From contig CABXDL010000007.1 in NCBI GenBank assembly GCA_902510995.1, positions 1-47,083 of the forward strand: a stretch of DNA of 47,083 nt, given 5' to 3'. Under the pieces are notes generated by a model. It saw only the letters and a program-made list of their open reading frames with translations, was not told the DNA's origin and ran no database searches. Origin of the DNA: an uncultured Candidatus Actinomarina sp. GTDB lineage: Bacteria > Actinomycetota > Acidimicrobiia > Actinomarinales > Actinomarinaceae. Position numbers and translations under genes: made by a program. Below are positions 6,930 through 46,215 of this stretch, one piece after another. Within the stretch, counting starts at the first letter, position 1. Each line of letters begins with the position of its first letter.

Positions 6930-8861
6930 GTGATAAAATTTTTCAAAAAAATAAATACTTTAAACATAAAAAGAACTTCATTCAGAAATGACATCACTGG
7001 ATTAAGAGCTATTGCAGTATTGTCAGTAGTTTTTTACCACGCAGATATTTCTATATTTAATGGTGGGTGGCTTGGTGTAGATGTATTTTTTGTTATATCG
7101 GGTTACCTGATTACAAATATTATTTTGTCTGAACTTAACGAAGGTAGTTTCTCTTTTAAAAGGTTTTATATAAGAAGAATTAGAAGAATAATTCCAGCTT
7201 TAATTTCAACCATTCTTCTAACAATACCATTTGCTTATTGGCTAATGACACCAAAAGCAATCTTGGAATACGTTGGTACGATGTATTCTTCTATGTTTTT
7301 TTATGCTAATTTATATTTTCAAAACCTTGATTTTTATAATGCTGAATCAACTAGTTTTATGCCTCTACTACACACATGGAGCTTAGCGATTGAAGAACAG
7401 TTTTATATAGTTTTTCCACTATTCTGTTTCATTCTTTATAAAACAAAAAAATATTTTTTACTATTTCTTTCCGCTACAATTTTATATTCTGTTTATCTAA
7501 ACTCAACAACTAATTATCTAATCAAATTTTATCAGATTCAATTTAGAGCTTGGGAACTTTTAATAGGCGGGTTAATAATGATCATTGGTCAAAAAGTTAA
7601 CTTACGGCACTCTGAAAAAATTGGCATCTCATTAACACTATTTTCTATATTTTATTTTGATGACAAGATGGTTACTTTAAACTCTATTGAGCCAAAATTA
7701 TTTGCAATTATTGGTGTCTGTTTAATACTTTTATCACAAAATGATACTCCTATCCAAAAGTTCCTTGGAAATAAGTATTTTGGTTTTTTTGGTTTAATTT
7801 CATATTCAATGTATTTGTTGCATCAACCTTTGTTTGCTTTTTTAAAGATATATCAAATAAGATACGAATCATACACTACATTCTTTTTGCGTGTAGTTTT
7901 TTTTGCTACTCTTATATTCTTATCTTTCTTAAGTTGGAAATATGTAGAATTATATTTTCAGAAAATAAATTTAAATAAGCTAGCTATATTTTTATCTGGA
8001 TCAATATTTTTAATTATATTATTTATAAATTATACAATTCAAACTGATGGCTATAAAGAAAGATACAGTCATGTTCCTGAAAATGTCTTATTTTACTCGG
8101 CAAATACAAACCTCTATCCAAACCCTTCTGATTTAATTGAATTCAATGAACATTGTGCAGATAGTGAGATTACAAAAAATTTACTAATTATTGGTGATTC
8201 ACACGTTAACACTTTCACATATACACTGATTAACGAATATAAAGATTTATCCTGCCAATTTAATATTAATTTCATTTTGAATCCAGAGGGGAGGTGTCTC
8301 TTGTCAATGCAAACAGATATTGTTGGAGAATTTTACTCTTGTAGTGATGAATATTTTGATAAGTTTATTAACAGACTAAATGAAAATGAATATATTGTTT
8401 TAGCTATTGGCAGATATGATAGATGGCTTGATAACTCAAAAGGAGGTGTTGAAGTTAAGTGTAGCAATTGTGACTACCAAGATATTTTCTATGAAAGGAT
8501 GGTAAAAATATCTGAAAATTCCGAATTTTTTATTATTGTTGAGCCAGTCCCTACTTACCCTGTAAAAGTTGCAGAAAGCTATCTGTACAAAAGAGTTGAA
8601 TGGGGAGATGACATAACCATAACATATTCAAATTGGATCGACTACATAAGCTCCACTAAAGACTTTCTAAATCGAATAAATTTAAATAATACACTAATAA
8701 TTTCTCCAGAAGATATTTTATGTAATAAAGAGTTAAATAAATGTTACGGCACAAAAGGGTACGAAATGTATTATTCAGATGATAATCACCTTACAGTAGA
8801 AGGTAACAAATTATTGATTGAATTAGTTATTTCGGAATTAAAAGAATTTATTAACAGATAA
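6930..8861 (+). CDS. Acyltransferase 3 (OafA/YrhL-like) with C-terminal SGNH domain
   Basis: GTG start. 'FRNDITGLRAIAVLSVVFYHADI...GWLGVDVFFVISGYLIT', 'HTWSLAIEEQFYIVFP', SGNH 'LLIIGDSHVN' and 'DDNHLT'. Confidence 0.9.
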   Translation: MIKFFKKINTLNIKRTSFRNDITGLRAIAVLSVVFYHADISIFNGGWLGVDVFFVISGYLITNIILSELNEGSFSFKRFYIRRIRRIIPALISTILLTIPFAYWLMTPKAILEYVGTMYSSMFFYANLYFQNLDFYNAESTSFMPLLHTWSLAIEEQFYIVFPLFCFILYKTKKYFLLFLSATILYSVYLNSTTNYLIKFYQIQFRAWELLIGGLIMIIGQKVNLRHSEKIGISLTLFSIFYFDDKMVTLNSIEPKLFAIIGVCLILLSQNDTPIQKFLGNKYFGFFGLISYSMYLLHQPLFAFLKIYQIRYESYTTFFLRVVFFATLIFLSFLSWKYVELYFQKINLNKLAIFLSGSIFLIILFINYTIQTDGYKERYSHVPENVLFYSANTNLYPNPSDLIEFNEHCADSEITKNLLIIGDSHVNTFTYTLINEYKDLSCQFNINFILNPEGRCLLSMQTDIVGEFYSCSDEYFDKFINRLNENEYIVLAIGRYDRWLDNSKGGVEVKCSNCDYQDIFYERMVKISENSEFFIIVEPVPTYPVKVAESYLYKRVEWGDDITITYSNWIDYISSTKDFLNRINLNNTLIISPEDILCNKELNKCYGTKGYEMYYSDDNHLTVEGNKLLIELVISELKEFINR

Positions 8862-8908: not shown

Positions 8909-10198
8909 TTACTTAACTCTCTCCCAAAAAAAGGATGAAAATAATGGATCAATATCTCTTTTAAAAATATTTTTATTTGGAAAGCTTTTTTCAAATATTT
9001 CTTTTGACATTCTCGCATCTTTAGCAGGATATAGAGCTCCTTCATGTGAGATTACCAACTTATCTAGTAGTTGTAAGAATTTTAATGTACTGTTTCCCTT
9101 GTTAGGAAAATCAATAGCTAAAGTAACCCCCTCCCTGGGAAATGATAAGTTTCCAATAGATTGAATAGAACCAAACTTTTTTAAAACAGTAAGAGCTGGG
9201 GTTTGGTTGTTTTCATTCAGAATTTCAATAAATTTTGAGATAAATGACTCAGCATATTTACTTGGAACAACAAATTGATACTGAAAAAAACCATTCTTGC
9301 CGTATGCTTTGTTCCAATTATTTATAATATCTAAAGGGAAAAAAAAGCTTCTATAAGTTTGCTTCGTACTTTTTTTTTCTTTATTTATTGCAAAATATAA
9401 ACTATTTAGAATTTTAATTGTTATTTTATTGATAAGAGAAAAAGGGAGGGTTAAAGGAAAAGAAATTTGTCTACTTTTTTTAAGAATATTTACTTTATCA
9501 GTTTCATTATTTAAATGATTGCCAGCTAACAATACTCCTCTAAAACTACCTTTTCTTAAATTAACAAGATCCAACCAACCAACACAGTATTCATAATTTT
9601 TTTCAAAATTATTATTTAATTCTATAAATTCTTTGAATGAATAAAACTTTTTACTTACAGTTTCCATATATATTGAATTAATTTTCTTTAGTTCAATAGT
9701 GATTGAAATTATAGTGCCTGTAAGACCCAGCCCTCCAATAGTTGAATTAAAAACTGATTTATTATTATTTTCATCACAGGTAATCATTCCGATGTCTGAC
9801 CTGTGAAGCTCTATGCTTTTAACAAAATTACCAATACTACCAGATGTGTGATGATTCTTACCATGTATATCATTTGCTATTGCTCCTCCAATAGTAATAT
9901 TTTGTGTACCAGGTACTACTGGAAGAAAGTAACCTTTAGGAACAATTTCATTTAACACTTCTTTAATTGTCAAATTAGAGGAACATGTCAATAAGCTATT
10001 TTCTTTGTCTACTTTCAAAAATTTTTTATGATTAGCAAGGCTTAATAACCTAGTGTTTAAACACACATCACCATAACTTCTACCTTTTCCATGTGTAAGT
10101 ATTTTTATTTCACTTTTATTAAAAAACTTTTTATCATAGTCTAAAATTTCAATATCTTTTTCAATAGGTAAGTTTCCCCAAGAAAGATTTTTTTTCAT
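8909..10198 (-). CDS. dprE1: FAD-binding oxidoreductase, decaprenylphosphoryl-beta-D-ribose oxidase (DprE1) homolog
   Basis: 'HGKGRSYGDVCLN', 'VPVVPGTQNITIGGAIANDIHGKNHHTSGSIGNFV', 'GGLGLTGTI', 'WNKAYGKNGFFQYQFVVP' closely match recalled DprE1 motifs. Confidence 0.85.
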   Translation of the reverse strand: MKKNLSWGNLPIEKDIEILDYDKKFFNKSEIKILTHGKGRSYGDVCLNTRLLSLANHKKFLKVDKENSLLTCSSNLTIKEVLNEIVPKGYFLPVVPGTQNITIGGAIANDIHGKNHHTSGSIGNFVKSIELHRSDIGMITCDENNNKSVFNSTIGGLGLTGTIISITIELKKINSIYMETVSKKFYSFKEFIELNNNFEKNYEYCVGWLDLVNLRKGSFRGVLLAGNHLNNETDKVNILKKSRQISFPLTLPFSLINKITIKILNSLYFAINKEKKSTKQTYRSFFFPLDIINNWNKAYGKNGFFQYQFVVPSKYAESFISKFIEILNENNQTPALTVLKKFGSIQSIGNLSFPREGVTLAIDFPNKGNSTLKFLQLLDKLVISHEGALYPAKDARMSKEIFEKSFPNKNIFKRDIDPLFSSFFWERVK

Positions 10199-10274
10199 AT
10201 ATTTATAGTAATCAAACTATAAGATTTAGTTTCTGATAGATACTTTCTTATTGAGGGTTTAGCTTGATTAAGAA

Positions 10275-10928
10275 CTAAAATCTATCAATTATTTTTTGAG
10301 GCAATAATAACAACAGTAATCTTGAAAAGTAGATTCCAAAATTAGCATGAGTGACTCCACTTTTGTTAAGCTTTTGGAAAATTATTTTTGCTGCTTCATC
10401 ACAAGTCATTGTGAACGGAGGGTTTTTATGACCTTTTGACATTTTTGAATCTACCTTTCCAAAACGAATTACTAAATAAGAACTTATGTTCAAAAACTTT
10501 ATTGATTTTTCAAGTTTATTTTTAGATAGTCCATAAATATAATTTTTATTCCTTGCACGCACTGAGGCAATTGAGGAAATAAATATAAACTTTTTTATGT
10601 GAGTTTTAATAGAAAGCTCTTTTGTGAGAAAATAAGGAACCTGAAAATTAATATAGTCAGTTAATTCTATTTGTCTTAAATCTGGATTTTGGATATTTCT
10701 ATTTTCAGCTAAATATCCATTAAAATATATAACTGTTGGACTCTCTATTTTTTCTATAAAGTCTTTAATGTAATCCAAATCTTTTAAATAATCATTAACT
10801 TTGAGGTGTTTGGAATTATTACTAGTAGATCTTGATATGGTAAAAAAAGGAATATTTCTTTTAGCCAATAATTTTTGAAAACTTTGACTTATTTCTGACC
10901 CTGAACCAACTACTACATAGTTTCTCAT
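10275..10928 (-). CDS. dprE2: SDR-family oxidoreductase, DprE2-like
   Basis: 'VVVGSGSEI', 'ISSIASVRARNKNYIYGLSK', 'VIRFGKVDSKMSKGHKNPPFT', C-term 'LLLLLLPQKIIDRF'. Next to dprE1-like and ubiA-like genes. Confidence 0.75.
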   Translation of the reverse strand: MRNYVVVGSGSEISQSFQKLLAKRNIPFFTISRSTSNNSKHLKVNDYLKDLDYIKDFIEKIESPTVIYFNGYLAENRNIQNPDLRQIELTDYINFQVPYFLTKELSIKTHIKKFIFISSIASVRARNKNYIYGLSKNKLEKSIKFLNISSYLVIRFGKVDSKMSKGHKNPPFTMTCDEAAKIIFQKLNKSGVTHANFGIYFSRLLLLLLPQKIIDRF

Positions 10929-10937
10929 ACACTTAAT

Positions 10938-11795
10938 TTAGAACAATATTCCAAATAATGTAAAAAAGTTAAATAATAAAAAGTTAAAAAGTAGTATTTT
11001 GTCAATTTTTAATATTGATATAAAATCTTCAGTCTTCGAAGATAGACTTAAGTTATAAAACCTTTTTGAAAACAAGACTAGAAACAAATTTGCAAAAATA
11101 AAAACTAATTTGAGACTATCTAAACTGAAAAAGACCCACAAATTATATGTAATTAGTGTTAAAGAAAGAGAAAACTGGATAATTCTTTTTAAAAACTTAG
11201 AATTATAATTTTGCCCGATTGATTTTTTTACTTTTGAATAATCAAGATTTTCATCTAGATGAATTGATAATTTTTTACCCGTAACAAGTGCCAGGCTGGA
11301 AAAAAGTATTACCAAAAGCAAATAATTTGATATGTATATATCTGTTGCAAGTGAACCTAAATAGGTCCTGTATACAAAAAATATAGAAATCAAACTTATG
11401 TCAAAAAATTTAATATATTTTAGATATTTTGAATATAAAACACTTAGCAAAAGATAGATTAAGCTAAATAACAACACCAAAGGGTTTGTTGCAAACAAAA
11501 TAAGCACCCCACATAAAAAAATTACTACAGATATTATTTTTCCTTGATAAATTGATAATTTTCCTGATGCTAAAACTCTGTTTCTTTTTATATAATGAGC
11601 TCTGTCTGATTCAAGATCAAGAATGTCATTAACTATGTACCCAGATGAGACTATAAGTGAAAACCCAATAAATATGGAAAATAGATCATAAAAAATTTCT
11701 TGTTCTAATTTGGTAGCAGATATTGGAACTAAAAATATTAGCAAGTTTTTTGCCCATTGCTCTAATCTGATTAATTTAAGAATATTGTACGTCAT
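10938..11795 (-). CDS. UbiA-family prenyltransferase, decaprenyl-phosphate phosphoribosyltransferase-like
   Basis: 'NDILDLESDRAH' (NDxxDxxxD), 'FFVYRTYLGSLATDI', 'SSLALVTGKK'. Resembles the Rv3806c family; multi-TM. Confidence 0.8.
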   Translation of the reverse strand: MTYNILKLIRLEQWAKNLLIFLVPISATKLEQEIFYDLFSIFIGFSLIVSSGYIVNDILDLESDRAHYIKRNRVLASGKLSIYQGKIISVVIFLCGVLILFATNPLVLLFSLIYLLLSVLYSKYLKYIKFFDISLISIFFVYRTYLGSLATDIYISNYLLLVILFSSLALVTGKKLSIHLDENLDYSKVKKSIGQNYNSKFLKRIIQFSLSLTLITYNLWVFFSLDSLKLVFIFANLFLVLFSKRFYNLSLSSKTEDFISILKIDKILLFNFLLFNFFTLFGILF

Positions 11796-15278: not shown

Positions 15279-15932
15279 TTGATTACAGGCATAATAGGGA
15301 TAAAGGAAGTTTCGGAAAGAGTTCAAAATAAAAATCTTAGAACTTTAGGCAATAAACCATTATTCTGTTGGATTATAGACACCTTGCTTTCAATAGACCA
15401 AATATCTGAAATTATTATCAATGCTGATGGCCAAAATTTAATTCAACAGTTAAAAGATGTGTATGGAGAAAAAATTATTGTCATTGAAAGAGAGGATGAA
15501 CTTAAAGGTCATGATGTTCCTATGAATGATATTATTTTGAGCTCATTAGACATTTGTAAAAATGAAATTATTTTAAATACTCATGTAACAAACCCTTTTT
15601 TAAAAGATAGCACTATTAAAGATGCTGTTAAATCTTATAACTCACAAAATGTAGGATTATTTAGTGTTTCAAAACATCAAAGTCGATTTTACAAGTCAAA
15701 CTTTGAACCAATAAACCACGATCCAGATGTTCTTTTAAAAACTCAAGACTTAGAAGCAGTTTATGAAGAAAATTCACTTTTATACATTTTTTCAAAAGAA
15801 GAATTTTATAAACAAAAAAATAGAATTACAAAAAATTCTAAACCTTTTGTTACTTCAAAACTTGAATCAATAGATATTGACACAGAAGATGATTGGTATC
15901 TATCAACAAAAGTTGCTCAGGATATAAGTTAA
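15279..15932 (+). CDS. Acylneuraminate/CMP-sugar cytidylyltransferase-like protein
   Basis: TTG start with AAGGAG upstream. 'SERVQNKNLRTLGNKPLFCWIIDTL', 'NTHVTNPFLKDSTI', 'ESIDIDTEDDW' match the NeuA/KdsB-type nucleotidyltransferase pattern. Confidence 0.75.
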   Translation: MITGIIGIKEVSERVQNKNLRTLGNKPLFCWIIDTLLSIDQISEIIINADGQNLIQQLKDVYGEKIIVIEREDELKGHDVPMNDIILSSLDICKNEIILNTHVTNPFLKDSTIKDAVKSYNSQNVGLFSVSKHQSRFYKSNFEPINHDPDVLLKTQDLEAVYEENSLLYIFSKEEFYKQKNRITKNSKPFVTSKLESIDIDTEDDWYLSTKVAQDIS

Positions 15933-15938
15933 GATAAT

Positions 15939-16847
15939 TTGAAAGTTTTAATTACATGCCCTAGAGTCACTCAGTCTGAAAAGTTATTTAATGATTTTTT
16001 TAACGAAAATAACTATTCAGTAGATTATAAATATCCTGAAAAACAGGGATTTAACTCAAATGAACTAAGTAATATCTATAAAAAACACGAACTTTTAATT
16101 GTAGGAGATGATCAAGTTGATTCAACTTTTCTTGAAAAAGCATCCGAAATAAAATTAATTATTAAGTGGGGCAAAGGTGTCGATAATATCGATCAAACCT
16201 ACTGTGCAGCTAATAATATAGAGGTATTAAATTCACCTGGAGATATGTCTCAATTTGTTGCCGAACATGGCTTAAGCTTAATACTGGCTTTATTCAAGAG
16301 ACTTAATTTAAACACTCAAATGCTAAAAAATAATATTTGGTCAAAAGAAGAAAGCTTATCCTTGTTTAATAAAAATGTAGGATTTTATGGTTTTGGAAAT
16401 GTATCCAACAATTTAGCAAAACTAATTGCTCCATTTAATCCGAGAATTCTATTTTACGATATAAAAGAAATTAAAAATAATTATATACAAACTGGATATG
16501 ATGAATTGTTCGGAACTTCTGACATTGTTATTATTGCATCAGAATTAACTAATGAGAATGAAGGTATTGTAAATTTTGAAACAATAAAGAGAATGAAGCC
16601 GTCCTCTGTTCTTATTAATATTTCTAGAGGAAAGATTGTAAATGAATCTGACTTAATCCGTGCTTTAGAAGAGAATTTGATATTTGGTGCTGGTTTAGAT
16701 GTACTGGAAGAAGAGCCTATAAACTTAACGAACCCCTTACTATCATTTAATAATGTAATAATTACTTGTCATAATGCTTCGAATACTAAAGAAGCTACTA
16801 TAAGTGTAAATAATGAAATACTAGAAATATTAAAATTAAATAAATGA
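15939..16847 (+). CDS. D-isomer-specific 2-hydroxyacid dehydrogenase (SerA-like)
   Basis: 'NSPGDMSQFVAEHGLSLILAL', 'VGFYGFGNVSNNLAKLI', 'SVLINISRGKIVNESDLIRALEENLIFGAGLDVLEEEP'. Confidence 0.85.
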   Translation: MKVLITCPRVTQSEKLFNDFFNENNYSVDYKYPEKQGFNSNELSNIYKKHELLIVGDDQVDSTFLEKASEIKLIIKWGKGVDNIDQTYCAANNIEVLNSPGDMSQFVAEHGLSLILALFKRLNLNTQMLKNNIWSKEESLSLFNKNVGFYGFGNVSNNLAKLIAPFNPRILFYDIKEIKNNYIQTGYDELFGTSDIVIIASELTNENEGIVNFETIKRMKPSSVLINISRGKIVNESDLIRALEENLIFGAGLDVLEEEPINLTNPLLSFNNVIITCHNASNTKEATISVNNEILEILKLNK

Positions 16848-17509
16848 ACATTGTTACAGGATCATCAGGAGGGCTTGGAAAATCAGTCTACAATTTATTT
16901 GTAAAAAATAGCCTTCCTGTTATTGGAATTGACATAAATAAGTCTGAAACTTGTGATTTAATATTAGATTTATCTAAAAACAATTTTGAAGATTTGACGA
17001 ACACTTTAGGTGAAACAAAAATTGATTCTATAACTTTTTGCCATGCCATTGGAAATTCTGTTGAAGAAATTAATAAATATAGCTTAGATGATTATTTAAA
17101 AATAAATGCACTATCAAGTCTTGATTTATATAATTTTTTAAAAAAGAATCTAAGTAAAAATAGCTCATTAAGCCTAATCTCATCTATACATGCAATATCA
17201 ACTAACAAGCAAAGCAGTAGCTACGCCCTTTCGAAAGTTCTCTTAGAATCAATTTTCAAAATGATGTGTCTTGATGAAACCACTCCAAAACTGAATTTAA
17301 TAAGGTTGGGTGCCGTCGATACTAGCATGCTTCATAAAAATATATCTAATATTGATAGTTTAAGAGATTCAATTCCCTCAAAAGAAATACTAGAACCAGA
17401 TGAGGTAGCAGGTCTAATCTATGACATACACACAAAACATTCAAGCTTGTTAAACAAGGCTATATTACAAATTGATGGTGGTGCATTGTTTAAATTATCT
17501 ACTGATTAA
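16844..17509 (+). CDS. Short-chain dehydrogenase/reductase
   Basis: 'IVTGSSGGLGKSVY', 'SLISSIHAISTNKQSSSYALSK', ATGA overlap with upstream gene. Confidence 0.85.
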   Translation: MNIVTGSSGGLGKSVYNLFVKNSLPVIGIDINKSETCDLILDLSKNNFEDLTNTLGETKIDSITFCHAIGNSVEEINKYSLDDYLKINALSSLDLYNFLKKNLSKNSSLSLISSIHAISTNKQSSSYALSKVLLESIFKMMCLDETTPKLNLIRLGAVDTSMLHKNISNIDSLRDSIPSKEILEPDEVAGLIYDIHTKHSSLLNKAILQIDGGALFKLSTD

Positions 17510-18446
17510 AAAAATACTTCTTGTAAAATTTATGATCTGAATCTTTTGGTTGGTTATCAGTTGTTCTTAATTTTTTACTATTTTCTTTTTTTAAAGCAAT
17601 ATATTGAGCAATATTTTTTAAAATAAAATAATTTAATATATGAAAAATAGAATTTTGATTAAAGCCTTCATTTTGTTTTTTAAAATTGAGTGCATCTTTT
17701 ATATCTAAAATAATTTTTTTAAAACATTGAAAAATGCTCAATTTAAAGATATTTGAAAAAATAAAACTGATAGCAATAGCTTCTCTATTAAACCTATTGT
17801 AAATCTGTTTATTTGATTCTTCGTGAAAATGCTCAACAGATATGTCTTCACCGTAAACAATTATTTTATTGTCTGCCAGTCCCCTTCTAGCTATTTCTAT
17901 ATCTTCACATCCTGATAATGATGGATCGAATTTATAATTTTTCCAAAAGTCATAAGGGTAACCCGCATTACCATTATTGCTAAAAGAGTAAAATTTTTGT
18001 GAGTAATCCTCTTTGAACCAATTATCTAAATGTGCAGCTTCAGATACTGAAGAATGTTTATATCCAACTTGTTTTCCAAATACAATACTTGCTTTTGTGT
18101 TCTGAAATATGATTATATAGTTCTTAATAAAGTCATTGTTTTTAGGGAAACAATGAGCTGATAAAGAGACTAAATAGTCACTTCCTTTAGCTAATTCTGC
18201 ACATTGATTTAAAGCACCTCCGTATGTAAAATTTTCTTGTTTTATTGTGTCGATAATAATTTGATACTTTGAATTATAATTTTTTACATAATCAAGAGAA
18301 CCGTCTGTGCTTCCCGAATCTAAATAAACAACTTGAAAATTTATATAATTTTGTTCGTCTAATAAGGGAAATAAAATTTTTAGGTTGCTTAACTCATTGT
18401 AGCTTCTAATTAATAAAGAAACCTTGGGGTCAAGGGTACTATTCAT
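17499..18446 (-). CDS. GT2-family glycosyltransferase
   Basis: 'VSLLIRSYNELSNLKILFPLL', 'VYLDSGSTDGSLDYVKNY', 'LSGCEDIEIARRG'. Confidence 0.85.
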   Translation of the reverse strand: MNSTLDPKVSLLIRSYNELSNLKILFPLLDEQNYINFQVVYLDSGSTDGSLDYVKNYNSKYQIIIDTIKQENFTYGGALNQCAELAKGSDYLVSLSAHCFPKNNDFIKNYIIIFQNTKASIVFGKQVGYKHSSVSEAAHLDNWFKEDYSQKFYSFSNNGNAGYPYDFWKNYKFDPSLSGCEDIEIARRGLADNKIIVYGEDISVEHFHEESNKQIYNRFNREAIAISFIFSNIFKLSIFQCFKKIILDIKDALNFKKQNEGFNQNSIFHILNYFILKNIAQYIALKKENSKKLRTTDNQPKDSDHKFYKKYFFNQ

Positions 18447-19266
18447 TTATAAACTCGACTTCATAATGACAATTAAAGTCTAAAGGTCCTTTTAGGGCTT
18501 TGTTGTCTTTAATTGAATCTACTAAATGCTTTTTACTATTCGAGGCAGGCTCTAAAACCATTACATTATGATTTCTCCAACCTCCTTGGGATTGAAATAT
18601 CCAAAAATATCTTAAATTTTCATCTCCAAAATTTAGCTTCATGGAATTGTTTAATGAATCTTGCACTAATATTTCATTTCTTTTTAAATCAATATATGCA
18701 AAGTCAAAGTTGCCTGAATCTTTTTTTAATTTAAAAAAATCTTTGCCTTTATTAATAATATTTCCAAAATCATCGTAGACTTTTTCAATGTTGCGAGAAT
18801 CACAAATTACTTCGGTACTACTATCTAGTGGAACTGCTAGGTGCAACTTAAACAGAAAATTATCATTAAACTTTATATCCGCTTTGTAGTCTACCTTGAT
18901 CGTATTGTCGCTAATCTTTATAATTTTTTTAAATACAGTTCCAGAATCAAGTATTTTTGTTGATAGATTTACTTCATTATCTGTTATGAAATCAATATTC
19001 CAAGCTGTTGACCATAACTCTCCATGATCTAAACCTTTACCCCATTCAAATTCTTCAATTGCATCATTAGGAAAAAGTTCTTCCCAACCACCTTGCCAAT
19101 TATCATCATAATTTGAATATTTTGATACAGGTTTGTTTTCTATTTGACTATTTTTCCAGACCCAATTTTTATTTGTAGGTATATAAATAATCGAGTCAAT
19201 CCTTCCCCCTAAATCAGGGGTTATTTCAACTCTTAACAATTCATTTTCAAGATTTAGATTATTCAT
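18439..19266 (-). CDS. Galactose-mutarotase-like (aldose-1-epimerase fold) protein
   Basis: 'LENELLRVEITPDLGGRIDSIIYIPTNKNWVWKNS', 'GGWEELFPND', 'DHGELW'. Overlaps neighbours by 8 nt. Confidence 0.55.
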   Translation of the reverse strand: MNNLNLENELLRVEITPDLGGRIDSIIYIPTNKNWVWKNSQIENKPVSKYSNYDDNWQGGWEELFPNDAIEEFEWGKGLDHGELWSTAWNIDFITDNEVNLSTKILDSGTVFKKIIKISDNTIKVDYKADIKFNDNFLFKLHLAVPLDSSTEVICDSRNIEKVYDDFGNIINKGKDFFKLKKDSGNFDFAYIDLKRNEILVQDSLNNSMKLNFGDENLRYFWIFQSQGGWRNHNVMVLEPASNSKKHLVDSIKDNKALKGPLDFNCHYEVEFINE

Positions 19267-20302
19267 ATATTTTTATATTTGGATTGGATTTAATTATATT
19301 ATTGAGCATTTTGTTGTGATATTTATAATATTTTTTAAAATTCCTGTCTTTAAAGAAAGAATAATCGAATGCATAATTTTTATTCCCCTCGTCAATAATT
19401 TTTTGATCATAATCCCAAACTGAATCTAATTCTTTTTCTAATTCGAAACTAACAGCTCCTAGGTGAACAGTACTCGAAAGACTAGTAGCAAGAGGTAGCA
19501 TATATTGTGTCATTACATTGTGCGTATTTTTTGTGTAAATTTTATTTTCTTTGATCAGAAAATTTACTTTTAATTTTTTTGAAGATGTCACTCCTATTAA
19601 CTTAGTTTCAATACCAGCATTTTTAAGAATAGGTATTACATTTGATGGAACAATTAAGAAATCTATCAAACTTTCGATTTTTTTAACTTTTTGAATAAAA
19701 TTTAGCGCATTTTCATCGTAAGAAAAATGAAAAAGAGGATCTCCAAATGAAAGTATTACTGTAGGTGAATCTATTTTTTCTATTATATTTATTGAATCAT
19801 TACATATAATTACAGGTTTTGATTTAATATTTTGAATTATTGAAGAAAACTCTGGAGAATTTCCCAAAACATAAAGTTCTTTATCGTTTAGAACTTCTTT
19901 AAGCTCATGGTAATAATTTAATGAAACATCTGTGTAATGGTCTCTGTCAGGAATACTAGAAAAATCAAAATAGCCGGTATTTATTAACATATTCATTCCA
20001 TAATGACCAAAATAATTTATTCCCACAACTCTCATTCTTTTAATGAAAAATATATTTCGAAGTAATTTTCCATAATTTAACTCTCCTATCAAAATTAAAC
20101 AATCGCAATTTTTTTTTGTTGTAGAGGTGCAAATTTTTATATTTTTGAAGAAATAAAAATTAGAAATTTTAGAATCATGATAGCCCAGAAATGAGTAACT
20201 TGTATAAATGTTAGTATTGTTTTTTTGAACAAAACTTAAAACAACAAAAAGAATTAATTTTGGTAATTTTTTTAAAGATTCTTTAACAGAATAATACCAC
20301 AT
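19259..20302 (-). CDS. Candidate DUF115/GT42-like (sialyltransferase-fold) protein
   Basis: 'LYVLGNSPEFSSII', 'PVIICNDS', 'NVMTQYMLPLATSLSSTVHLGAVSF' give an N-to-C order resembling CstI/DUF115 proteins. Remote, by eye. Confidence 0.35.
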   Translation of the reverse strand: MWYYSVKESLKKLPKLILFVVLSFVQKNNTNIYTSYSFLGYHDSKISNFYFFKNIKICTSTTKKNCDCLILIGELNYGKLLRNIFFIKRMRVVGINYFGHYGMNMLINTGYFDFSSIPDRDHYTDVSLNYYHELKEVLNDKELYVLGNSPEFSSIIQNIKSKPVIICNDSINIIEKIDSPTVILSFGDPLFHFSYDENALNFIQKVKKIESLIDFLIVPSNVIPILKNAGIETKLIGVTSSKKLKVNFLIKENKIYTKNTHNVMTQYMLPLATSLSSTVHLGAVSFELEKELDSVWDYDQKIIDEGNKNYAFDYSFFKDRNFKKYYKYHNKMLNNIIKSNPNIKIYE

Positions 20303-20340: not shown

Positions 20341-21063
20341 CTATAATATCAATTTTTTATATTTTCTTAATACTTCAGATGATTCGTCTATCTCTACCAC
20401 TTCTCCTTCATGAATTAGTATTACTAAATCACAAAGACGCTCAATTAATGAATTTGAATGAGAAGTTATAATTGCGGATCCAAGGTTATCTATTTCATTT
20501 TTTAAAAACTCGACAGCATTTTCCTGAAATTCTAAATCTCCAAAATTAAAAAACTCATCCAAGCCTAGGAAATCAATATTTTCTATAAAAGCTAGGGTAA
20601 GTCCAAATCGAACTTTTGACTGAGTTCCTTTTGACAGGTGACTAATTGGTACTTGCAATTCTTCAGTAGTTAGTCTTGATATTTCTTTTACCCTTTCTAG
20701 CTTATTTGGACTATTTCTATCATTTTCCAGTATTTTCAATGCTTCTAAGTTATCAATTGAGTTTAAGTCATCTTGATATGTATTAGGAATATCAAGCAAC
20801 TTACCGCTATTAAAATTCCTTCTTATAAAACCTGAGGATGGTTGATAGTAATCAAATATTAGTCTCAACAGGGTTGACTTTCCTGACCCATTCTTACCAA
20901 TTACTCCATATATTTTATTATTTTCAAGTTTTAAATCAATATTTTTCAATACTGATTGCTCCACATTATCGTTGATAGAAGTTGTTCTTTTTAAAGAAAA
21001 CTTAGGCCTAGTTTTATAACTAAAGCTACAATTTTCAAGTTCTACACTATATTCGCTATTCAT
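20341..21063 (-). CDS. ABC transporter ATP-binding protein, polysaccharide-export (Wzt-like) type
   Basis: Walker A 'GVIGKNGSGKSTLL', signature-like 'LSKGTQSKVRFGLTLA', Walker B 'IDFLGLDEFFNFGD'. Confidence 0.85.
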   Translation of the reverse strand: MNSEYSVELENCSFSYKTRPKFSLKRTTSINDNVEQSVLKNIDLKLENNKIYGVIGKNGSGKSTLLRLIFDYYQPSSGFIRRNFNSGKLLDIPNTYQDDLNSIDNLEALKILENDRNSPNKLERVKEISRLTTEELQVPISHLSKGTQSKVRFGLTLAFIENIDFLGLDEFFNFGDLEFQENAVEFLKNEIDNLGSAIITSHSNSLIERLCDLVILIHEGEVVEIDESSEVLRKYKKLIL

Positions 21064-21850
21064 ACAAAATTAGATCTCTGATTTTTGATATATATTTTGA
21101 ATTATGTAAAAAGAAATAATAAGAAATAAACATAATTAATGACGGAATTATAAAACTAATTAAGTTTAGGCTATAGTCTTTATCAATCACAAAATTTAAT
21201 AAGTCGAAAATAAAATAAAAAGGGTTTGCTGTTTTAATAAAAGTATCAATATAAATATTGCTGCTTTCAGCAACCCACAATATTGGACTAAGATAGAGCG
21301 TTACCCTAAGTACGTGAGGTATCAAGTCCTGAAGGTCAATAAATTGTTTTGATAAAATAGTTGTAGGAATACAGATAATGAATGTATAAATCATACATAA
21401 TGTATTAACTAAATATGCAAAAATTAATATTTTTATACTTTCAGAAATTGTAAATTTAAAATCATAATTAAAGAAAAATAATTGAACTATCACTATTACA
21501 GGCAATAGATAGAAAACTGGCAAAAAATTAAACAAGACTTTAGATAAAAATAATTTCAATAATGCATGTCTAACAGTAATAAAATTTATTAAAGCGTGGT
21601 TATAAATCCATTCAGTAGCTCCATTCATTGAGTTTGTTATACCAGAAAATATTAATATTCCCATTGTGATTACAAAACCTCTATTACCATCTTGTTGGAT
21701 CGCAGAAAATACAAGGGTATAAATACCCATGAATATAACCGGATTTAGATACTTCCACAAAATTCCAAAGAATTTTTTTCTGTGTTCAGCTTTGTATTGA
21801 AAGTTTGCAAGTTTAAATACGTCAGATGTATAATTTAAAATTTTCATCAT
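21056..21850 (-). CDS. ABC-2 type permease (Wzm-like)
   Basis: 'AEHRKKFFGILWKYLNPVIFMGIYTLVF', multi-TM, 8-nt overlap with the ATPase gene. Confidence 0.8.
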   Translation of the reverse strand: MMKILNYTSDVFKLANFQYKAEHRKKFFGILWKYLNPVIFMGIYTLVFSAIQQDGNRGFVITMGILIFSGITNSMNGATEWIYNHALINFITVRHALLKLFLSKVLFNFLPVFYLLPVIVIVQLFFFNYDFKFTISESIKILIFAYLVNTLCMIYTFIICIPTTILSKQFIDLQDLIPHVLRVTLYLSPILWVAESSNIYIDTFIKTANPFYFIFDLLNFVIDKDYSLNLISFIIPSLIMFISYYFFLHNSKYISKIRDLILYE

Positions 21851-21957: not shown

Positions 21958-23844
21958 TTAATCGTTCAATAAAATATTTTTTATGCTCGATCTTTCTATA
22001 GCTGCTTTTGCGCCATAATATGATAAATGTGAGCCATCGGTAAAGAAATAGTTTCCATTTTCTAAATAATTACATTTTTTTGATTTGCATAATGAATCAA
22101 AAATATTCAAATATTGAAACTTAGGATTTTTTGAAAATCCTAAGTTTTTGACAACTTTTTCAAATTCTAAATTATTTTTATATTCTTCTTCAAAGTGAAT
22201 TAAATTTTCTGAAACTATTAAAGCTGAATTTTTTCTATAATACATGAGTTCATCAATTTTTGGAGAAGGGGTGTATCCTATTAGGATTATTTGATTGTTA
22301 TTTGAAATTAGTAGATTAATTGTTTCTATTAGGTCTTTTTCAGTTATTTGGACAAACCCATTATCAAAATCTCCTCCTATCAGAATATTTGTGTTCGATA
22401 ACGATGTTATGTCTTCATAATAAGTAGTCCCTGGTATAAATTCACACCTATTTATTGCCGGGTAGCAACCTGATTTAGTATATTCATAAATCGTATAAAC
22501 ATTTAAAATTTCATCATCAAAAAAACCATTTACCATTGATGAAGTCATTGAGTCGCCCAATATGTAAAGATCTTTCTTGCCTGAACCAAATTTACAAATA
22601 GTATCAATTGAATCTTGATCTATGCAAGTTTGCTTCTTTTGATTGACTAAATAATTTGTACCAGGTTTAGTTTCATAGCTTTGATCTAAGGCTTCAATAT
22701 TAAAACCGGTTTTATTAAATAAAGTACTTGCATTTTTTGGAAATATTGTAAATCCTAAAATAAAAATAAAAGCTACTAATACGATCTTGAAATTAAAAAA
22801 AGAAAAAAACCTGGCCTTTCTATAAGTCTGCTCTACTAGTAAATAATTAAATAAAGATATTAGATAAATAGAAATTAGAATCGCTGTTAAAAAGGCAGCC
22901 TTGTTTAAATTAAATATACTTTCTTGATCAAGATTAGCGTAAAATATATGATTTCTTATTGCTGCAAGTATTGGCTGGTGAAATAAATATAAAGAAAAAG
23001 AAATATTCCCAAGATGAACCAACAAATTATTTAACTTTCCATTACTTAATTTAAATTCATTAATCATTAGAAAAAAAGCAACAAATGTCACAACAAATTT
23101 GTTATAGGGCCCTAAGTCAAAGTAAAAATTAAAAACTAAGATAATAATAAAAAATAAATTAAACTTTGAAAATTTTGATAATAAATGTTTTGATGAGATA
23201 GAGGCGCCTATGGAACCAGCTAAAAACTGAAAAGCTCTTGAAAATGGGCTGTAGAATAAATAATTTTCATAAGTAAAAAATATATTCGATAATGATAATC
23301 GCATATAGAATACTTCACTCAAACCCCACAAACTTAATAAAAAACAAACTAAGAATAATTGATATCTATATTTAAATAATTTAGATGTGACTATTAAGAA
23401 AATGGGGAAAACTAAATAGAACTGCTCTTCTACACTCAGGCTCCAAAGGTTGATAATTAGGTTTCTTTTAGAATCTATCGTGAAGTAATCAATGGTTTGT
23501 GAAAAGAATATATTTCCAATGAAGAGAAGAGAATATTTTATTCCTCTTATTAATTCGTAATAGTGCTCTAAAGATAAGTTATAAAAACCAAGAATTAATG
23601 TAAAGATTGAACTTGTTACTAATGATGGAAAGATTCTTTTAAATCTTCTAAAGTAAAAATTTGATAATTTAAAATTATTTTTATCAATAAGTTCTAAAAT
23701 TTGCTTGCTTATTAAATATCCACTTATTACAAAGAATAAATCAACACCTAGATATCCGAAAGGAAGCAACTCTTCCTTAAAATGATAAATAATTACGGAT
23801 AATACTGCTATTGCTCTATAAAGTTGGATATCTTTTCTTACCAT
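21958..23844 (-). CDS. Acyltransferase 3 (OafA/YrhL-like) with C-terminal SGNH domain
   Basis: 'QLYRAIAVLSVIIYHF', 'GYLGVDLFFVISGYLIS', 'NLWSLSVEEQFYLVFP', 'LYILGDSMTSS', 'FTDGSHLSYYG'. Confidence 0.9.
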   Translation of the reverse strand: MVRKDIQLYRAIAVLSVIIYHFKEELLPFGYLGVDLFFVISGYLISKQILELIDKNNFKLSNFYFRRFKRIFPSLVTSSIFTLILGFYNLSLEHYYELIRGIKYSLLFIGNIFFSQTIDYFTIDSKRNLIINLWSLSVEEQFYLVFPIFLIVTSKLFKYRYQLFLVCFLLSLWGLSEVFYMRLSLSNIFFTYENYLFYSPFSRAFQFLAGSIGASISSKHLLSKFSKFNLFFIIILVFNFYFDLGPYNKFVVTFVAFFLMINEFKLSNGKLNNLLVHLGNISFSLYLFHQPILAAIRNHIFYANLDQESIFNLNKAAFLTAILISIYLISLFNYLLVEQTYRKARFFSFFNFKIVLVAFIFILGFTIFPKNASTLFNKTGFNIEALDQSYETKPGTNYLVNQKKQTCIDQDSIDTICKFGSGKKDLYILGDSMTSSMVNGFFDDEILNVYTIYEYTKSGCYPAINRCEFIPGTTYYEDITSLSNTNILIGGDFDNGFVQITEKDLIETINLLISNNNQIILIGYTPSPKIDELMYYRKNSALIVSENLIHFEEEYKNNLEFEKVVKNLGFSKNPKFQYLNIFDSLCKSKKCNYLENGNYFFTDGSHLSYYGAKAAIERSSIKNILLND

Positions 23845-44914: not shown

Positions 44915-44919
44915 ATTTG

Positions 44920-46215
44920 ATGGAAAATATATCAGTAAATAATTTAGTTGAAGAATTTGAATCAAACCTCCCAAGAGAAATATCTATTTCAATTGCTAAA
45001 AATATTTTAAATTCAAAAATAAGTAAAGAGAATGCAATAAGTGAGTATAAGAAAAATATTGGTTTGCTAGAAAAAAAAATTCAAAGAAGTGTTCTTAATT
45101 GCACAGGTACTTTACTTCATACAAACCTAGGAAGAGCACAAATTAACCCTGAATTTACTGGAGATGCTTCAAATATCGAATATGATCTAGACAAACACAA
45201 CAGAGGAAAGAGAAATGAATACTTAACTTCTTCTATGAATTTACTACTTAACTCTGAGAATGTTTGTTTTGTAAATAATAATGCTGCCTCTTTATTTATT
45301 GCATTAAAAACTATAAAAGAAACTTCTGAAGTAAAGTCTGTAATTATCTCTAGAGGAGAATTAATTGAAATTGGGGGTTCTTATAGATTGCCTGAAATAA
45401 TTGAATCTAGTGGTTTAAAACTTAAAGAAGTTGGAACAACTAACAAAACAGATGTTAAGGATTATGAAAAAGCATTAAAATCTAACCCGGACTCTCTTCT
45501 TCTTAAAGTTCACAGGTCTAATTTTTCTATTGAAGGCTTTTCAAAAGAAGTTTCAATCAAAGAACTTAAAACTCTCTCAAAAAAATATAATGTTGAACTT
45601 TTTCATGATCTTGGGAGCGGACTTGTGGTTGATAGAAAATTTCTAGAGTCACAACAAGTAAATATCTTTGATGACGAGCCAACGGTTCAAGAATCTTTAA
45701 CAGAAGGTTCAGATTTAGTTATGTTTTCTGGAGATAAGCTATTCGGCTCAGTTCAAGCAGGAATAATTGCTGGGAGGGAAAAGCTCGTTGAGGATATTAA
45801 AAATAATCCTTTATTTAGAACATATAGATGCTCTCCATTAATTCTTTTTGAGTTACAAAATACTGTTAATAAATACATAGAAAAAAATGAAATAGAAATT
45901 CCTATTTGGTCTTCTTTATTGATGACCTACGAAGATATTCTATTAAGAGTCAAAAATATTTCAAAAGAAATAAAAATGAATCATGAGATTGTGGATAGTG
46001 AGTCCTTAATTGGTGGAGGTACAATGCCTGATAAAAAACTTTTGACACCAGTAATTAGTATTGGTAATCAAAATATTGATAATCTTTTGACAATATTATC
46101 AAATCAAGACACTCCTCTAGTACCAAGAGTTTCTGAAGATAAAATAATAATCGACGTAAGAAGCTGTTCAGTAAAAAATGACAAAAAAATAATAGAATTG
46201 CTAAACAAAGTATGA
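44920..46215 (+). CDS. selA: L-seryl-tRNA(Sec) selenium transferase
   Basis: 'LNCTGTLLHTNLGRA', 'VNNNAASLFIALKTI', 'FHDLGSGLV', 'MFSGDKLFGSVQAGIIAG', 'RTYRCSP'. ATG at 44920 preferred over TTG 44917. Confidence 0.92.
   Translation: MENISVNNLVEEFESNLPREISISIAKNILNSKISKENAISEYKKNIGLLEKKIQRSVLNCTGTLLHTNLGRAQINPEFTGDASNIEYDLDKHNRGKRNEYLTSSMNLLLNSENVCFVNNNAASLFIALKTIKETSEVKSVIISRGELIEIGGSYRLPEIIESSGLKLKEVGTTNKTDVKDYEKALKSNPDSLLLKVHRSNFSIEGFSKEVSIKELKTLSKKYNVELFHDLGSGLVVDRKFLESQQVNIFDDEPTVQESLTEGSDLVMFSGDKLFGSVQAGIIAGREKLVEDIKNNPLFRTYRCSPLILFELQNTVNKYIEKNEIEIPIWSSLLMTYEDILLRVKNISKEIKMNHEIVDSESLIGGGTMPDKKLLTPVISIGNQNIDNLLTILSNQDTPLVPRVSEDKIIIDVRSCSVKNDKKIIELLNKV

Follow-up and report, generated by a model that had tools for sequence, protein, structure and literature searches.

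A recurrent cytidylyltransferase cassette, rearranged in one Candidatus Actinomarina genome, as a proposed route to CMP-activated 2-ulosonic acids without a NeuB- or KdsA-type synthase

How can a bacterium make a sugar acid activated with cytidine monophosphate (CMP) when no synthase for the acid is in sight? The known substrates of NeuA/KdsB-type cytidylyltransferases are 2-keto sugar acids that are bound at the anomeric C2, and to our knowledge the CMP-activated glycan sugars described so far are built by synthases that condense phosphoenolpyruvate, NeuB and KdsA among them. The question is raised by a stretch of 47,083 nucleotides, below called the window, from the genome of an uncultured Candidatus Actinomarina sp. 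(GCA_902510995.1; 982 kb, 32 contigs, 75% complete). The window, contig C7 (CABXDL010000007.1) of this genome, is low in G+C (24-32%) and carries a cytidylyltransferase gene (CT) followed by two dehydrogenase genes. An earlier note on this DNA proposed a CMP sugar-acid pathway that lacks a NeuB/KdsA-type synthase. At the sequence level this proposal is supported: neither NeuB nor KdsA was found in the 75% complete genome of the window, nor in three further genomes with a related CT, G210 (96% complete, two CT copies), G169 (95%) and G209 (94%). We propose, with a probability of about 58%, that the genes are one rearranged copy of a widespread cassette for making a CMP-activated 2-ulosonic acid, and for its transfer, with no phosphoenolpyruvate-condensing synthase involved. 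The genes, and the probable exporter beside them, are:

15279-15932, plus strand: CT, a CTP_transf_3 cytidylyltransferase with a TTG start (PF02348, 6e-16)
15939-16847, plus strand: HADH, a D-2-hydroxyacid dehydrogenase (PF02826 2-Hacid_dh_C, 3e-43)
16844-17509, plus strand: SDR, a short-chain dehydrogenase (PF13561 adh_short_C2, 7e-13)
17499-18446, minus strand: GT2, a family-2 glycosyltransferase (PF00535 Glycos_transf_2, 2e-15)
18439-19266, minus strand: MUT, a predicted galactose-mutarotase-fold protein (sub-threshold DUF4380 match)
19259-20302, minus strand: ST, a weakly MptE-like protein (own sequence without Pfam match; orthologue match below cut-off)
20341-21063, minus strand: Wzt-like ABC ATPase, probable glycan exporter (PF00005 ABC_tran, 2e-14)
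21056-21850, minus strand: Wzm-like ABC permease (NF050109 galactan Wzm, 1e-4, below cut-off)

All six open reading frames (ORFs) at 15279-20302 are in the ORF list where they had been placed, and they belong to the families first suggested, apart from the fold of ST. CT, HADH and SDR form the tight plus-strand operon that had been described, the start of SDR overlapping the end of HADH by four bases (ATGA). The Wzm/Wzt exporter does follow ST on the minus strand; its two ORFs overlap by 8 bases, and the top NCBIfam model for the Wzt is the galactan Wzt (84 bits, below cut-off). The two convergent operons of the earlier note are thus present in the window, but relatives show a single cassette. 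In three genomes of the same genus (loci L029, L030 and L031) the six genes are collinear (ST-MUT-GT2-CT-HADH-SDR) and share one strand, with mostly overlapping ends, and the two halves in the window are therefore one rearranged unit. In the search of same-genus genomes, a close CT turned up in only three others than that of the window, and the cassette is therefore variable within the genus, like glycan islands in general.

To find more distant relatives, a profile of 16 CTs was used. In GTDB genomes it picked out at least 523 related loci, and the best 80 were fetched. Clustering of neighbouring ORFs and the distances between them were evaluated over 96 loci. HADH accompanies CT in 85 of the 96, mostly directly after it and with a median gap of -3 bases. 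GT2 is found in 74, mostly directly before CT, as in the relatives of the same genus, and SDR in 58, mostly after HADH; an MptE-like gene lies near CT in 58 loci too. The GT2-CT-HADH(-SDR) core is kept as a unit across loci of many phyla, the taxa including Actinomycetota, Alpha- and Gammaproteobacteria, Nitrospirota, Planctomycetota, Chloroflexota, Cyanobacteriota and Verrucomicrobiota. The co-occurrence analysis that had been suggested for the gene set thus shows that it recurs, and given the collinear six-gene operon of three genomes and the frequency of HADH beside CT the grouping is not due to chance. One locus, L047, comes from a record named MAG Klebsiella pneumoniae ZE-13nov19-135; mis-binning is possible there, and we make no claim for Klebsiella. 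Several recurring neighbours have no Pfam match (L030 11283-12800, L031 5485-7722, L035 8181-9245, L050 4685-6343 and L059 10365-11753), and some of these may be further transferases.

CT is a member of the CTP_transf_3 superfamily (PF02348, 59.3 bits, cut-off 22.6), and an alignment of 16 CTs shows that the motifs S-x-R-V-x-x-K-N, T-H-x-T-N-P and D-I-D are kept. Grouping with a cytidylyltransferase of known specificity would have spoken against the earlier note, and we see no such grouping. CT obtains 68 bits with the PseF model (cut-off 206) and 20-32 bits with the KdsB models (cut-offs 155-248). On the CT tree the cassette proteins form a family of their own, apart from the NeuA/PseF groups sampled, the position of the root being weakly supported. 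From its sequence, CT is proposed to be a CMP-2-ulosonate synthetase. No CT relative was found in phage records; the plasmid searches returned annotated Roseobacter loci and NeuB-linked loci at about 25% identity, the latter used below as controls. Two long candidates, a GT2-CT fusion in L096 (621 aa) and a CT in L105 (630 aa), were rejected, as the N-terminal part of each looks like a spurious out-of-frame extension.

A clue to the chemistry lies in the genes beside the core. Lactonase types were identified via Pfam, NCBIfam and PDB matches, and lactonases and aldolases were tallied over 97 loci. An SMP-30/gluconolactonase (PF08450) is found in 25 loci and a metallo-beta-lactamase (MBL)-fold gene, whose best named matches include the L-ascorbate-6-phosphate lactonase UlaG, in 18, both often directly before GT2. 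The two never occur together in the 81 loci without an aldolase (hypergeometric P = 4.6e-4, uncorrected for relatedness). Counting well-supported branches of the CT tree alone, there are at least seven changes for SMP-30 and at least three for MBL, i.e. the types swap repeatedly. In L111 (4378-6042) a UlaG-like MBL domain is fused to the cassette GT2; the lengths of GT2 in L070, L080, L092 and L102 suggest the same fusion. That unrelated lactonases have been recruited independently to the same gene set is our strongest indication of a lactone being opened there.

The two dehydrogenases fit with this. HADH scores 147.5 bits against PF02826, and its triad R230, E259 and H278 is invariant across 21 relatives. 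Its profile matches phosphoglycerate dehydrogenase (PGDH), glyoxylate reductase and 2-ketogluconate reductase. The substrates of NeuA/KdsB-type enzymes being 2-keto sugar acids, a HADH beside CT is sensible as the maker of the 2-keto group; running in reverse it would destroy the substrate of CT. SDR scores 49.2 bits against PF13561 (cut-off 27) and keeps the catalytic S114, Y127 and K131. With the profile of the SDR family, the top PDB match is the glucose 1-dehydrogenase 3vtz (9e-63), six orders of magnitude before the next, and other aldose dehydrogenases rank near the top; the copy in the window is divergent. Some Roseobacter loci have a D-xylose-1-dehydrogenase-like SDR instead, adjoining SMP-30. 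SDR is accordingly put forward as a candidate aldose 1-dehydrogenase.

In the proposed scheme, SDR would oxidise an aldose at C1 to an aldonolactone, and the lactonase (SMP-30 or UlaG-like in other phyla, with MUT in its slot in Actinomarina) would open the lactone to the aldonate. HADH would oxidise the aldonate at C2 to a keto group, giving a 2-ketoaldonic acid, e.g. a hex-2-ulosonic acid, and CT would join it with CMP at the anomeric C2 to give a CMP-2-ulosonate. GT2 and/or the MptE-like ST would transfer the sugar into a glycan, and Wzm/Wzt would export the glycan. Since the aldose would be oxidised stepwise to the ulosonate, no carbon-joining synthase would be needed. We observe the gene content, its order and conservation, intact catalytic motifs, the lactonase swap, and searches in which NeuB and KdsA were not found; from the sequences we infer which reactions take place, in which direction they run and what the sugar is. 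No dehydratase, which would lead to a 3-deoxy product, was seen among ten common cassette neighbours without an assigned family; those checked are glycosyltransferases, ABC ATPases, methyltransferases or proteins without a Pfam match. The product therefore probably keeps its 3-hydroxyl group. For the wider claim, an undescribed and widespread route from ordinary aldoses to CMP-2-ulosonates with a 3-hydroxyl (hexulosonates or pentulosonates), with its own CMP synthetase family, dedicated transferases and repeated recruitment of lactonases, we see even odds.

Two genes of the window need separate comment. MUT has weak matches to DUF4380, DUF5107 and DUF4432. The top fold matches of its AlphaFold model, built from a two-sequence alignment and of low confidence (predicted local distance difference test, pLDDT, 51), are mutarotases, with E-values down to 4e-6, and H81, H142 and E239 are invariant in four sequences. 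MUT is thus predicted to be mutarotase-like, in agreement with the initial assignment. In Actinomarina it holds the place before GT2 where a lactonase lies in other loci, and it may act as a mutarotase to provide the correct anomer, the lactone then opening spontaneously, or alternatively may act on the lactone. For ST, a sialyltransferase fold had been suggested, and this part stands with weak backing: the orthologue in L030 (10107-11213) matches PF01973 MptE-like at 8e-8 (32.6 bits, just below the cut-off of 34.6), and profile searches with the window protein gave no family match. Comparing ST with the MptE-like cassette proteins by hhalign aligned 36 columns at a probability of 31%. An AlphaFold model of ST, also from a two-sequence alignment, was poor and its fold search uninformative, and neither was used. 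Sequence searches of the PDB with MUT and with ST gave nothing significant.

The cassette resembles several known systems in part. As in the NeuB/NeuA pathways for sialic, pseudaminic and legionaminic acids, a CTP_transf_3 enzyme would activate an ulosonic acid that is probably destined for a surface glycan, and MptE-like candidate transferases lie nearby; unlike them, the cassette has no NeuB or NeuC, it has HADH, SDR and, in other phyla, a lactonase instead, and its CT falls outside the NeuA/PseF groups sampled. With the KdsA/KdsB pathway to 3-deoxy-D-manno-oct-2-ulosonic acid (KDO) it shares the activation of a 2-keto sugar acid with CMP, but it has no KdsA and its CT is only weakly KdsB-like. 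In oxidative aldose pathways (xylose dehydrogenase with SMP-30; sulfoquinovose or glucose dehydrogenase with a lactonase), an SDR and a lactonase turn an aldose into an aldonate, and the SDR families of the cassette match aldose 1-dehydrogenases. Those pathways are catabolic, whereas the genes here accompany CT, polysaccharide exporters and glycosyltransferases, with no dehydratase among the neighbours checked. The 2-ketogluconate reductase of the GhrB type belongs to the same D-2-hydroxyacid dehydrogenase family and acts on 2-ketoaldonates; the cassette HADH is proposed to oxidise and obtains 113 bits with the GhrB equivalog, far under the cut-off of 492.

Short 2-ulosonic acids do occur in bacterial polysaccharides. 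The E. coli K3 antigen contains 4-deoxy-2-hexulosonic acid (Dengler et al. 1988, a reference of PMC10433991), and PMC10433991 could not assign a gene cluster to K3. Literature searches for a cytidylyltransferase in connection with hexulosonic acid or gluconolactonase found nothing, and broader ones gave nothing relevant, in a coverage that leaves out most subscription journals. The cassette looks like CMP-ulosonate synthesis by a new route, for which no published description was found in this partial literature.

Several points weigh against our reading. The loci, picked for the similarity of their CTs, are unevenly spread over the phylogeny, and 39 of the 97 have neither a lactonase nor an aldolase locally. 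While 43 other loci have a lactonase within the cassette or next to it, Actinomarina has MUT instead; SMP-30 was not found in the four Actinomarina genomes, nor a UlaG-like gene at the Actinomarina loci. Glycan loci mostly use nucleotide sugars, and free aldoses would be unusual precursors. The specificity assigned to SDR is a guess within a diverse family, and ST is a candidate transferase for the CMP-activated sugar on the basis of a weak profile match. Finally, the CT of the window is divergent and on a long branch, and its neighbours on the tree include, at weak support, the aldolase-type loci L072 and L091, as also holds for the Actinomarina CTs in general.

This last point also counts for the best of the alternatives, in which a 3-deoxy or hydroxypyruvate-derived 2-ulosonic acid would come from an aldolase, HpcH/HpaI-like or not, whose gene lies elsewhere, with HADH and SDR just supplying or tailoring it. 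An HpcH/HpaI aldolase (PF03328) does lie beside the same CT family in 15 loci (L026, L032-L034, L038, L049, L054, L072, L085, L090, L091, L098, L099, L114 and L118), none of which has a lactonase; some also have HADH and a HAD phosphatase, among them that of Acuticoccus. The ulosonic acid is there presumably made by aldol addition, for which HADH may supply hydroxypyruvate, and this variant looks like a second route to a CMP-ulosonate in which no synthase is apparent. For Actinomarina we consider it unlikely. No such aldolase lies at the four Actinomarina loci, and no match above cut-off was found in those four genomes, that of the window included. The aldolase-type HADHs are largely separate on the HADH tree (two changes), the Actinomarina HADH standing apart from the seven sampled, bar one, and in gene order (GT2-CT-HADH-SDR) the set agrees with the lactonase type.

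Less probable again is that CT activates a compound other than an ulosonic acid, such as a hydroxy acid, a phosphonate or an alcohol, while HADH and SDR reduce rather than oxidise. The signature of the CT family would allow this, as the T-x-P motif has an invariant His where the solved NeuA 6ifd has Gln. However, the nearest solved relatives of CT are all CMP-ulosonate synthetases (NeuA, KdsB), and lactonases together with aldose-dehydrogenase-like SDRs fit sugar-acid chemistry.

The least probable alternative is an ordinary nonulosonic-acid or KDO pathway with its NeuB or KdsA in the missing quarter of the window's genome, which we hold to be very improbable: the genome is incomplete and two cassette relatives (G089 and G037) do carry a true NeuB, but that gene lies several kb away in an island with its own second NeuA/PseF-like CT, a true NeuB is lacking from G077 (83% complete, cassette CT present) as it is from G210, G169 and G209, the KdsA model TIGR01362 gives nothing above cut-off in eight genomes, and CT fits no known specificity model. 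The sole match in G077 is a 3-deoxy-D-arabino-heptulosonate 7-phosphate (DAHP) synthase, and the KdsA-like PF00793 matches in the cassette-bearing relatives were rejected for the same reason, being one DAHP synthase of 350 aa beside TyrA- and AroA-like genes (aro cluster). Around the distant NeuA/PseF-type control CTs, NeuB is nearby in 9 of 11 loci, the other two being short stretches cut by contig ends, and HADH, SMP-30 or MBL in none.

Other genes of the window were recorded as well. Two large acyltransferase-3-like proteins (6930-8861 and 21958-23844) make O-acylation of a glycan likely; the second has a fused SGNH domain according to Pfam, and the first is similar by eye. At 8909-11795 on the minus strand three genes in a row encode an FAD-binding oxidase (PF01565), an SDR-like protein that matches no Pfam family and a UbiA prenyltransferase, resembling the DprE1/DprE2/UbiA set for a polyprenyl-phosphate arabinose-like donor. 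SelA (L-seryl-tRNA selenium transferase; PF03841, 9e-103) is encoded at 44917-46215 on the plus strand, and ARAGORN lists no selenocysteine tRNA (tRNA-Sec) within the window.

If the proposed oxidation route is true, it would add to the NeuB and KdsA routes by which CMP-sugars are made. Acidic surface sugars of a class rarely tied to genes would then be expected in bacteria from Actinomycetota and Pseudomonadota to Cyanobacteriota, Planctomycetota and Nitrospirota. Many genes annotated as 'acylneuraminate cytidylyltransferase' would also need a corrected name, their hosts perhaps making no sialic acid.

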